Source: Echinarachnius parma
Lineage: Eukaryota; Echinodermata; Echinoidea; Clypeasteroida; Echinarachniidae
Length of the DNA stretch: 64,000 bases
Direction: 5' to 3'
Assembly (NCBI GenBank): GCA_037951105.1
Contig: JBAMJV010007663.1
Location: 62,001 to 126,000 of the forward strand
Part shown: positions 508-59,900 of the stretch, in pieces
How the letters are laid out: the number at the start of each line of letters is the position of its first letter
Position numbering within the stretch: the first letter of the stretch is position 1
The notes under the pieces: model-generated
Database searches by the model: none
Told to the model about the DNA's origin: nothing
What the model saw: the letters and a program-made list of their open reading frames with translations, nothing else
Made by a program: the position numbers and the translations under genes

Positions 508-3500
508 CTTGTAACAATAAATAATATTTAATTTACATACAGCTGTATAAAAATGGTTTTAAGTACTATGAAATAAAGGTATACAATAAAAGGTACAAAA
601 AAAAAAGCTTCATACAAACTAGCTAGGATTCTATGTACCTTTTTAAAAATTTGTATGTGTTGTTTGAATTAAATGAAGATGAATAAATATAAACAGTAAA
701 TACATTATGATTAATTTAATATACAAGATTTTAACATAGTCTTGAAAGAGATTTTTTTTTAAATAAAAAAATACATAATCTTTATTTGAAACTCCCTTCT
801 GAATTCATATGACCATTTATACAGGTTTTACTCATTACTTTATAGCGTTTCTCCATCTACCGTTTGAGCATAGCTCTCCAGTGACAATAAATGATGTACG
901 TGATAAAGATACTGATACTTACAGGAACTCCCAGGACACATCTGAGGAAGGAGATGACCTCTGGAGACAGGGGCGCTGCCCCAGAGAACACGACCTCCAA
1001 TTTACCACCCATCAGGGTCTGAACAAAGATAGGAAACATATGATGTTCTCAGTAAGTAATGAGTAATGTGCCATTCAAAGTTTGATTTATGTTTATATAC
1101 ATTGTAACCATGTGAAAAAAAAAAGAATTTCTGTTAATGTGGATAATCAATTTTTAAAAAATATAAAAAACGCATTAGCGGGAAAAAATGTCACTCTCAA
1201 AGACACATACTCATCTTCATTCAGTGGCAATTCAGTGGCATGGAACCACACATGCTCATCTTCATTCAGTGGCAATTCATCTTCATTCAGTGGCAATTCA
1301 GTGGCATGGAACCACACATGCTCATCTTCATTCAGTGGCAATTCAGTGGCATGGAACCACACATGCTCATCTTCATTCAGTGGCAATTCAGTGACATGGA
1401 ACCACACATGCTCATCTTCATTCAGTGGCAATTCAGTGGCATGGAACCACACATGCTCATCTTCATTCAGTGGCAATTCAGTGGCATGGAACCACACATG
1501 CTCATCTTCATTCAGTGGCAATTCAGTGGCAATTCAGTGGCATGGGAGGGCACATGCTCCCAATAATTTAATAAAAAACAATAAAAACAGAAGGGTAAAT
1601 CCTCTACAAAATAACATGCATACATTGTACCCCCAATCAGTATGACCATATGCTACGCCACTGTCTTCATTTAATGTTTTGACATTAAAAAAATACAAGT
1701 ACAAATACAAATGACATCTAATTATTCTACCAATACTATTTCATAGAGCAAGATTTGGGCATATACATGTACCTGTATTCTCTTGAATGCTAGCTTGTCC
1801 CACATGGTTGTGTTTCTGCAAATTCCTCTGCAAAAAAAAGAGACAGAAAACATCATGTTTACTAACTTGTACATAATTGAAACCCTCATTATACATGTCT
1901 GTGATGTGACTCTGCTTTTTAGTTGTGGTTGTTGTTGTTGTGATTTTTCTTATTGTGATTATCATTTCTACATGTATTAATATCTTGATTTAAACATAAG
2001 GACACAAGTGATTGATTTACTGATATACCCAATTTAATGTTTTAAACGTATCAAAAGTATTTTAGAAATATATATATATAACATTTTTGTATCACTTGTT
2101 TTTCAGCAAGTTTAATTGTTCTATCTTGAATTGGAAAAATGTCTTTGTCAGTTTATTTTTGCATAAAACCTTTATATATCTGCACTAGCTGCACCAACTG
2201 AACTTACTTCTCCAGCTCTGCCCTCTTGCTGCTCATGCCCATGTTGAACACCGTCTTCTTCACCCAGTTGCTGCTGCTTACACCTTGCACAATCTGGTCA
2301 AGAGAGAGAAAATCAAAGGGACAATGCTTACCATACCAAAATCGATTATTGTACAGGTCCTATATTCTGAAAACCAAACTAGCTTGGTTCCATTCTAAGC
2401 CTATTTTAGATGATAGGGCTAAGTATGCAACACAAACTTGTCTTAGTCCCAAACTACGGTTATCTGGGTTGAACGCTGTCTTCTACAGCCAACTGCTAGC
2501 GTTTACATTCTGCACAATCTGGTGAAGAGAGGGAACAACAAATATTGGAAGGATGCTTTAATACCATACCACAATTAATTGTCGTACAGGTCCTATATTC
2601 CTAAAACCAAACTAGCTTGGTTCCATTCTAAGCGTATTTTAGATGATAGGGCTAAGTATGCAACACAAACTTGTCTTAGTCCCAAACTATGGTTATCTGG
2701 GTTGAACGCTGTCTTCTTCAGACAGTTGCTAGCATTAATACGTGTGGTTTGTGGTTGCACCATGTATAAGGAGAGGATTGGTGAGTCCTGAGAAGGACTG
2801 TTGGAATTCTTTCTAGGATAGTCCTAAAAAGGACTGTGGTAGTCCTAGAAAGGACTGTGGGTAGTCCCGGAAAGGACTGTTATTCTTTCTTGAGCTTGTA
2901 GTTCGTTCTAACAAGAGCTACAGCGCCGGTATAGTTATTGTAAGGAGAGGGTGGGTGGTAGGTAGGCTTAGTGGTAGGACCGTTGCTACCATTTCTAGTG
3001 AAGAGAGAGGACATCAGACATTGGAAGAATGCTTTAATACCATACCAAAGTTAATTGTAGTACACGTCCCATATTCCTAAAACTACACAAGGTAAGTTCA
3101 TTTAAAGTCTAATTTTGAAGATATGGCCAAGTACGGTAAGCAACAAAAATCACAATTTTTGGCCCTCATAGTTACCTTATCATGAACTCTATTGAGTAGC
3201 CTAGGGACGGAACAGAACCCGCTAGGTTGGGCGAGCTTGATGTCATCTATGATTGCCTTGACATCACCACGGTAGAACGCAATCTTCCCAGCATGCAAAA
3301 GGATCATCATCTATGGAGTTGAGATAGAAGAATAGTTATTAAATGGATGCCTGTAAATTGTCTAACTCCACAAAAATTACTTGGAGCTTCCTCGTTTCTC
3401 TTCTACCGTAATGTTTAGCTTATGGTAAGAGAAGAATAAAATAGGGTTAGATTTTTTCAAATGCCCATTTAGTATGACGGTATCTATCATTGATAATCAT

Positions 3501-56900: not shown

Positions 56901-59900
56901 ACCTTCGTTACATTTTCGATTTCATACGACGACGCTCGTTTAGTCACGTCAATGGTGAAAACCAGGGTAAACGCGTTCTCAAATCGGGTGGTGAGCAAAG
57001 GGTCGATGATGACGCATGCACAGTGCATGAAAATGACGTCATCTAGAGCCGTCGACGTAAACAATTTAAAAAAACAAATAAAAACTCTTTACTATAAATC
57101 CTATGGTGACGGCCGGAATGTAACACTTTCATTCGTTACGAAACAAACAACATGAAAGTGTGGAGAAAGATAATAGTGGGAAAGAAAAGAAGCGGATAAA
57201 ATGGTCAAGATGGGGTAAGGGGGGGGGGGGCGGCTCACCGATGCAGAAGATGAAGACGATGATGATTATCGTGTAAGTGACATTGTCATTGTCAACGAAG
57301 CACGCAGTGGCCGAACACACCAGAAAGGCCAGATCAGAACCAAAGAACATGCACAGCTTGATGTGGCTGGAAAGAGAACAAAACCCACAAATAGAAAACG
57401 CTGTAGATTTCTGTGTATTTTATTTGAATGGGTACTAATAATAATTTTCTTGTACTCTGCACTTTCGTTGTTGTACATTTCATGTGTTCATAGAATACAA
57501 TCCGAATCTAATTCAGAAACCTATCAAGTTGAAGTTTAAATGAGCTCTGAAATTGTTCTTAACGAATGAAACAACTAAACCCACAACAAATTTGCCAACT
57601 GTTCTTGTTATTAAGCCCTCTGCAGACAGAGCCGACTCGACCCGATTTGACTGGTTTTCATTCCGATCGGCTCAGTTTTCAGTGCCTCGCAACACATATT
57701 TTGCCAGTCGAGAGACAGTCGGATGTCAGTTGGGGCCGATTCAACACGATGAATCGGATTCGACCGACCGGGCCCAACTCTAGCCTGATTGAAACTAGTC
57801 GGATCGGGTCGAGTCGGCTCTGTCTGCGCCGGGCTTCAGATGAATCACAGTACATCCCAGTTTTAAAAATGGGTACATCTACCGTAACTGAATGGTATTC
57901 CAAACATTTTGGTATTGTGTTATATTTGTGTTACAGAAACTATTCATAATGTCAAACGGCAATAAACAAAACAAAAATACACTAACGGTATTCTGAGAAA
58001 GTTTTCTAGCTTCTCGTGCTGCCATATGATGTAAGCCAGAGCCAGGAAGGGGTAACCAAGGATGGAGAGGAGGGTAACGAGTCCAAACATCCTGGGGGAG
58101 GACGACATCAACCTCTGGTAGAAGGTGGTGGAGATGATGTTGACGGAGAATGCGTGAGATATGAACTGTGTTTGGGTCAGAGAAACAGAAAGCAAAGCGA
58201 AACATTATAGATTAAAATCAAGAACTTAAGTTGGGGAAAAAAAGTGGTGTACCTTTTGGGGACATAGAGGTAAATGCCCCCTATAATAAGAGGAATGGAC
58301 AAACAGGAATACAATTATTTCCTGGAATTGTTCTTTTTTATACTTTGATTGTGAACGAATTATAATAATGCAGCAATTCAATTCAAACACATCATGTAAA
58401 CAAAATGATGTAACCGTAACGTCAAGAAACAGCTGAACGTGAGTTTAAATGACAAACATTAATGTAAAGCAGAGATTGAGAAATTGTAGAGTGTAATTAA
58501 ATTGTCACGTTTTGGGCATACTTACGGCTTTTTGTTTGAAGTCGATGGCAGTCTGCATCAAGGCAACAGGGTGGTCTATCTCGGGCTTGTCGCTCTGCTC
58601 ACACAGAGTGCAGAGCTGAGGACGGAAAGAGACAATTCATCGTATGGCTACAATCATAAACTGATGCTGGGTTCGGTGCAGATTTGGCCACCGATATATA
58701 CTCCGCAAAAAAAGAAACTGGACACTTGCATAAGACCAAATATTTCATATTTATTTACGATAAAATATATGATATTGTATATCAAATTAAAGATAAAACG
58801 ACCCTCCTCAATAATGGCATAGAATCCAGATGAAATCATTCATGCGTGACTTGTCACGGTCAATTAACCACAATAAGGTGTGTTTTAAAAAAAAGCAAAA
58901 ATGGAACATCCACTCAATCATATAAATGTTGGTTAGCATAATCTAAAACGCTATATTCATGACTTTGGCATAATTTGTCAATACAAATGTGACCTTTTCT
59001 ATCTTCATTTCAATACAAAAGTATAAATGAAGACAAATTGTGAACATTATAGGTTTTATTTTCATAAAAAAGTAACAAAATGTGAATTCCATGGCAAAGG
59101 TTTTTTAGTCGAAACCACAGTTTGTGCCCTTATTTCAGCATGAAAAATTGTATAAATTTTTCTCAAGAATTCTACTGTAGTCCAAAGATCTTCAAAACCT
59201 GATGTCACCATTGGTCAAACAGTTGGGCAGTCTTTAACATGACAATTCTCTAGGTAACTATGTTAAAATTGCAGGGGACACACTCAAACAGACAAGCTTC
59301 ATGCCTCTAATACAGACCAGTATGATGATGCTCTCATAACCTGGCCCTGTTTTATTGACAAATTTGTATTTTCAGAGTTTGTTCATAACAATAAAGTTAA
59401 ATAATGTCATAATTTACTTGCCCCGCACATCTTGTTTTAAGTGAAACGCTCACGGGCGTAGACATGACATTGATACCCATTCAAGTGGGGGGGGATGAGC
59501 TATTCATTCATCGGATTACATCCCCCCCCCCCCCCCCCCCCCCCAGTTGAATAGGTATTACGTAACTCGCTACGCCAGTGGAAACGCTTACTATCATCCT
59601 GATCATTTCAGTCGAATTGTGTGGTCCTCCATTGTTTTTGCTATTTTTGAAACTGACCTTGCTATTGTTAATTAACCACGGCATTTCATGCATGAACGAT
59701 TACACCTTTAATTTATACCCTGCATGCAGAGGACTAAATTCCCTCTAATTTGATGTATGATAATCTACACTTTATTGTACATTAATATAAAAATATTTCA
59801 ACTTTTACAAGTGTCCAGTTTCTTTTTTTGCGGAGTATAGATACATAGTTGGGATCATATAATGTAGGTGCCAAATTGGATGTCGGGTATGGTGACGAGT

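Follow-up and report, generated by a model that had tools for sequence, protein, structure and literature searches.

Tandem copies of splice junctions beside exons of three genes in an echinoid genome: resemblance to the mirage minisatellites of amphioxus

Background

Mirages, the minisatellite-like tandem repeats of amphioxus in which an exon-intron boundary is copied and the authentic exon adjoins the array, are the closest described counterpart of the structures considered here, which lie within three genes (ACSL-, ATAD1- and TRPC-like) in a window of 64,000 nucleotides from the echinoid Echinarachnius parma (assembly GCA_037951105.1, contig JBAMJV010007663.1, positions 62,001 to 126,000, forward strand). 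The passages of the amphioxus reports drawn upon here describe such repeats in Adh3, the globins BflGb6 and BflGb9, TnC and PGBD5. The globin mirages have units of 150–160 base pairs (bp) and affect both boundaries, the AG or GT dinucleotide is present in many but not all repeats, and reverse transcription PCR suggests that regular splicing is undisturbed (PMC3087553). The tandem repeats of lancelet PGBD5 likewise overlap splice sites, with Adh and troponin C cited alongside (PMC3902484).

Duplication within genes has also been linked to intron gain: in potato, a duplication crossing an intron-exon boundary became a new intron (PMC4974935), and near intron pairs in Drosophila have been used to argue for gain by tandem duplication (PMC2891723). 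As these sources present the process, the spliced copy is itself the new intron, whereas in the E. parma window no copy is needed to complete the reading frames, and nothing points to a new intron. Internal tandem repeats that alter gene structure have been described in human segmental duplications; they too reflect minisatellite expansion, partly at exon-intron boundaries, but in the portion of that account used here their average unit is about 30 bp and they are tied to young paralogues (PMC2812944). At another scale, whole-gene tandem duplications bounded by microsatellites are described in a report on the sea urchin (PMC3091723). No echinoderm case of the mirage type appeared among the matches listed from one open-access library.

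Results and discussion

Junction-spanning copies beside nine exons

The window was annotated independently of a preceding sequence-only reading of the same DNA, and 33 exons were placed in the three genes. Local copies that span a splice junction are present beside nine of these exons (Table 1), at the acceptor in seven (ACSL exons 3, 5 and 11, ATAD1 exons 2, 4 and 6, and TRPC exon 8) and at the donor in two (TRPC exons 5 and 6); exon numbers throughout are those of the window, and the numbers of the sequence-only reading were matched to them by position. That reading had named ten exons as flanked by junction-straddling copies, and the observation is reproduced for all of them except ATAD1 exon 3, where no copy rose above noise, the best local match of the donor being 34 and that of the acceptor falling under the print threshold of 34. 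By inspection, each unit consists either of the tail of an intron with the start of the adjoining exon, or of the end of an exon with the start of the adjoining intron, and there are between one and seven decoy junctions per array.

These arrays share several features with mirages, namely a tandem unit that spans the exon-intron boundary (at TRPC exon 5 represented by one copy 613 bp away), duplication of either boundary, and retention of AG or GT at many but not all copied sites. The smallest spacings of the junction-bearing families are 115–225 bp, with the 613 bp of TRPC exon 5 standing apart, and these unit sizes are similar to, and partly longer than, the 10–72 and 150–160 bp of mirages. 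A pattern resembling the homogenised interior and diverged edges of mirages appears in the ACSL exon 3 array, where the distal unit shows 83–87% identity and the other seven are 91–98% identical to each other; the five units compared in the ATAD1 exon 2 array show no such pattern. The present case differs from the amphioxus ones in its echinoid host, in its concurrent occurrence in three unrelated genes and 9 of 33 exons, and in being known from sequence alone. We consider it quite probable that the arrays are mirage-type minisatellites, that is, local tandem duplications tolerated by splicing in an echinoid genome. They would thereby extend a curiosity of amphioxus to an echinoderm, at high density in the window, and this favours a general process of local duplication over a peculiarity of amphioxus.

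The individual arrays vary in architecture. In the ACSL exon 3 array the unit comprises about 69 bp of intron tail, the acceptor and 54 bp of exon, and the seven upstream decoy junctions carry AG in four instances and AT in three. At ACSL exon 11 there is an additional partial exon copy (2701–2730), and the decoy at 2994 was missed in the scoring of decoy sites and seen only in the alignment of the copies. Two decoys of ATAD1 exon 2, at 31716 and 32268, match the true acceptor at 28 of 28 positions around the junction, and the exon sequence copied with them aligns over 67 and 152 bases. Long and short units can be read to alternate in the ATAD1 exon 4 array, which has a higher-order spacing of about 264 bp, and only about 18 bp of recognisable exon appear to have been copied at ATAD1 exon 6. 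In both the ACSL exon 5 and the ATAD1 exon 2 array the copy most distant from the exon, on inspection, is missing most of the unit's intron portion, which suggests a founding event other than simple tandem duplication, or later change.

Two further partial copies were noticed by eye. A short copy of ATAD1 exon 4 (34440–34507) ends in AAG/GTATTT and might serve as a pseudo-exon some 67 bp long. Downstream of TRPC exon 8, a diverged copy of the middle or 3' part of this exon (52770–52860) lies beside a trinucleotide repeat.

Table 1. Exons with junction-spanning local copies and the corresponding arrays (window positions; SO, exon number in the sequence-only reading)
Feature	Position	Strand	Remarks
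ACSL exon 3 (SO 4)	11588..11689	-	Functional copy at array edge; spliced alignment
ACSL exon 3, acceptor array	11636..12628	-	About 8 units of 123 bp
ACSL exon 5 (SO 6)	9345..9523	-	Spliced alignment
ACSL exon 5, acceptor-side array	9403..9923	-	Unit 191 bp; decoy acceptors 9714, 9905
ACSL exon 11 (SO 11)	2208..2293	-	Spliced alignment
ACSL exon 11, acceptor-side copies	2243..3133	-	Smallest spacing 225 bp; decoy acceptors 2518, 2994
ATAD1 exon 2	32465..32687	+	Spliced alignment
ATAD1 exon 2, acceptor-side array	31521..32616	+	Unit about 193-197 bp; decoy acceptors 31523, 31716, 31903, 32069, 32268, all AG
ATAD1 exon 4	34816..34965	+	Spliced alignment
ATAD1 exon 4, acceptor-side array	34273..34929	+	Decoy acceptors 34302, 34440, 34565, 34703, all AG
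ATAD1 exon 6	37476..37588	+	Spliced alignment
ATAD1 exon 6, acceptor-side array	36924..37489	+	Unit about 115-130 bp; decoy acceptors 36972, 37087, 37216, 37347, all AG
TRPC exon 8 (SO 9)	53281..53536	-	Reading of open frames and splice borders
TRPC exon 8, acceptor-side copy	53411..53734	-	One copy; spacing 184 bp; decoy acceptor 53720
TRPC exon 6 (SO 7)	55658..55797	-	Reading of open frames and splice borders
TRPC exon 6, donor-side array	54789..55763	-	Four downstream copies of exon 3' part that carry GT and a microsatellite tail; decoy donors 55434, 55272, 55070, 54894
TRPC exon 5 (SO 6)	57239..57366	-	Reading of open frames and splice borders
TRPC exon 5, donor-side copy	56621..56697	-	Single, diverged, 613 bp downstream; decoy donor 56625

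Placement of the duplications relative to splice junctions

The sequence-only reading had regarded the copies as far more numerous than expected in 64 kb, a statement that fails when bases are counted and holds when duplication events are counted. The tally of junctions covers 62 of the 63 in the three genes, the uncertain donor of the last ACSL exon having been dropped, and does not extend to unknown genes that might have exons in the gaps. Locally duplicated DNA at spacings up to 300 bp amounts to 8651 bases, or 13.5% of the window, and includes 8 of the 62 junctions against a rotation mean of 7.72 (P 0.54); wider spacings give P 0.59–0.70. Similarly, a local-alignment scan at a score of at least 60 detects a local copy at 8 of 62 junctions, compared with 172 of 600 intron controls, or 91 of 495 once control positions inside the junction arrays are set aside. 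Per base, the junctions are no richer in local duplication than the remaining window. This null, however, answers a different question from one based on events, because it counts every unit although only the edge unit can hold a working junction.

In the per-event null each array was treated as one founding duplication and the founding unit was placed at random. Self-comparison of the window, blind to junctions, yielded 25 families of local direct duplications, as delimited by our own clustering at a single threshold and with the unit length replaced by hand in seven of them (12820, 19548, 34027, 36924, 49295, 59867 and 60666). Nine families contain an annotated junction and 16 lie away from one. 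Over the whole window 2.49 junction-bearing families are expected (P 0.0002), and within the gene spans 3.53 (P 0.003). The excess resides in the contiguous arrays with units of 100–300 bp in the gene spans, 8 of 11 of which hold a junction against 2.36 expected (P 0.0004), and is absent from the 13 families outside this class (1 observed, 0.75 expected, P 0.55). Over the whole window, the unedited family values give 2.15 expected (P 0.0001), or 3.29 (P 0.002) when the longest aligned length, up to 300 bp, is taken as the unit. The long-unit excess persists with any one gene removed (P 0.002–0.011) and declines to P 0.014 with units doubled in length; it is weak in the genes taken singly, which give 3 of 4 for ACSL (P 0.047), 3 of 3 for ATAD1 (P 0.028) and 2 of 4 for TRPC (P 0.11). 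It nevertheless amounts to eight arrays in three genes, and the test is post hoc.

Among the 11 long-unit arrays, seven contain an acceptor against 1.37 expected, a value reached in none of 40000 simulations, and one contains a donor against 1.32 expected. Taken by itself, the contrast between acceptors and donors falls short of significance (7 of 9, P 0.18; 7 of 8, P 0.07). The figures suggest an excess of duplication events at acceptors. In a simulation of detection bias, units bearing exon sequence remained visible 1.38-fold longer, raising the expectation to 3.0 and leaving P 0.002; were the advantage two-fold, P would be 0.013. As sole cause of the excess, better survival of copies with exon sequence was therefore rejected, the exon parts being, in addition, no better conserved than the intron parts (see below).

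As the sequence-only reading had pointed out, the copies lie on the intron side and each array is bordered by the intact exon. Whenever tandem duplication takes in a single junction, the exon stays whole at one end of the array and the half-exon comes to lie within the intron, and acceptor copies consequently fall upstream and donor copies downstream. The edge position of the intact exon is thus a property of tandem duplication and offers no clue to function. The same reading had noted that copies rarely carry both splice sites; in agreement with this, none of the arrays includes two annotated junctions, although such an absence is expected, and hence unremarkable, for units this long. Only about 0.35 of the 2.36 junction-bearing arrays expected would have two junctions, and as the probability of finding none in eight is about 0.28, selection against whole-exon duplication cannot be demonstrated from this count.

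Conservation and predicted effects of the decoy sites

Across 18 junction-spanning copies, 1452 of 1595 intron columns (91.0%) and 1252 of 1398 exon columns (89.6%) are identical. AG or GT is retained in 26 of the 30 scored decoy sites, which were chosen by similarity, a procedure that favours intact dinucleotides. Three of the four exceptions are ACSL units with AT for AG, and the fourth (9962, 19 of 28 positions) is probably a chance match. The likely real decoys accordingly show three dinucleotide changes, where about five would be expected in 60 bases at about 9% divergence. There is no clear constraint on the splice dinucleotides of the copies, which are about as well preserved as drift would leave them.

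Use of an acceptor decoy would meet a stop codon within the extension in 19 of 25 cases and further on in one, and the five that are open and in frame all belong to the ACSL exon 3 array; AG is retained in three of them, at 11812, 12181 and 12304, which could add 41, 164 or 205 residues, respectively. At all five donor decoys the length of the extension is not a multiple of three and the frame would shift. With 20 of 25 acceptor decoys leading to a stop and every donor decoy to a frame shift, frequent use would break the genes, and the decoys are presumably ignored for the most part. Exon definition is the likely reason. In this regard, the two ATAD1 exon 2 decoys that are indistinguishable from the true acceptor over 28 positions differ from it mainly in the distance to a donor, and offer a direct test of exon definition.

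Origin of the arrays

Local tandem duplication tolerated by splicing was one of the options raised by the sequence-only reading, and it emerges as the best supported, since intron and exon parts show about equal copying fidelity and most of the families (16 of 25) lie off annotated junctions. Under this explanation, local duplication would have produced units, mostly of 120–230 bp, containing one splice junction, and some would have been amplified to as many as eight units. A half-exon would have an acceptor with no partner donor close by, or a donor with no such acceptor, and would be passed over under exon definition, so that the gene would continue to work and the array could remain in the intron under near neutrality. 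The acceptor excess might, as a guess, stem from an intron end prone to duplication, such as the pyrimidine tract. Such arrays may represent the intermediate state required by models of intron gain through tandem duplication. What weighs against a purely neutral account is the surplus of events at junctions over random placement, 8 of 11 against 2.36, which survives correction for detection; chance and neutrality are perhaps not the whole story.

One response to this surplus is a mutational bias that targets tandem duplication to acceptors, through the pyrimidine tract, an R-loop or a stalled replication fork, with arrays being common genome-wide. We regard this as possible but rather unlikely. 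The acceptor-bearing arrays clearly outnumber expectation, donor-bearing ones do not, and the difference is neither explained by survival of exon parts nor fully by detection power. Against this stand the small post hoc sample from three genes with its modest single-gene and doubled-unit significance, the non-significant split between acceptors and donors, and the lack of any excess per base or in the other 13 families. The broader proposition, that this bias in echinoids leaves an appreciable fraction of exons with series of near-identical acceptors, which continuously supply material for new introns and exon extensions, is doubtful; if true, such genes would be a permanent natural experiment in spliceosomal discrimination between identical acceptors. 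Conversely, the association with junctions may be mere coincidence in a window rich in local duplications, whose 33 exons give 62 junctions. The per-base expectation (8 observed, 7.7 expected) and the lower frequency of local copies at junctions than at intron positions speak for coincidence, but the per-base null counts every unit, and the event-based null gives P 0.0001–0.014 over the pooled variants. Coincidence alone thus appears an improbable, if not negligible, account.

The two other options of the sequence-only reading find little favour. A role of the copies as decoys that slow or regulate splicing, for example via intron retention as said of vertebrate decoy exons, could draw on the preserved AG and GT dinucleotides, on the two ATAD1 exon 2 decoys that match the true acceptor at all 28 positions around the junction, and on an existing literature on decoy exons and intron retention. 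However, the dinucleotide changes are close to the number expected, the selection of sites by similarity itself favours those left intact, AT replaces AG in three ACSL decoys, most acceptor decoys bring a stop, and lone half-exons are not full decoy exons; a regulatory role is very improbable. Highly heterozygous marine genomes are prone to assembly duplication, and allelic or read-level duplicates could have been placed in tandem. One amphioxus mirage does appear to be aberrantly assembled in a draft genome, according to the part of that report used here (PMC3087553). Nonetheless, two alleles cannot yield the five to eight copies seen in arrays of up to eight units, pairs of units are 80–98% alike in the two arrays compared (ACSL exon 3 and ATAD1 exon 2), and the longest exact internal repeat is 34–103 bp in the eight junction arrays measured. 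On this diversity of copies systematic assembly duplication was rejected as highly unlikely, and local tandem duplication tolerated by splicing remains the preferred explanation.

Gene models

The ATAD1 gene has seven exons on the plus strand, placed by spliced alignment of sea urchin ATAD1. Its product is 81% identical to the Lytechinus and Strongylocentrotus proteins, and in a tree of 14 proteins it falls inside the echinoids, grouping with these two (support 95/93) to the exclusion of Diadema. The 14 ACSL exons of the window, on the minus strand, derive from spliced alignment of three ACSL proteins; the three alignments concur for exons 3–14, save for one donor in one of them, and exons 1 and 2 are based chiefly on a single protein among the three. 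The 12 exons of the TRPC-like gene, also on the minus strand, were assembled by reading open reading frames and splice borders and, when joined, form one open frame. Its assignment is supported by a match of the pore part to TRPC6 among solved structures (E 6.8e-20), obtained with a better ordered query; the first query against the same structures returned a single match at E 2.4. A search of four TRPC pieces against Pfam returned PF00520 and PF08344, both below the cut-offs, and a homologue search gave no match, full-length TRPC proteins perhaps being outside its length limit. Neither the ATAD1 nor the TRPC reading frame needs a copy to be complete, and the joined ACSL exons are open.

Other repeats in the window

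Several further repeats occur in the window. In an ACSL intron, a tRNA-Ala(AGC) gene lies in a 291-bp unit that is present twice in tandem, the two being 99% alike (4504–5139), and a further, inverted copy of 63 bp adjoins them. In the TRPC-like gene, about six 132-bp units stand in tandem at 50173–51004, 108 bp downstream of the exon 10 donor, with the junction untouched, and the last exon has in-frame coding repeats of 12 and 15 bp of the VDEP and MFAEP type (44474–44598). A dispersed repeat of about 550 bp occurs in both orientations at 3347–3726, 10066–10611, 16817–17363 and 26679–27901, and is likely a transposable element.

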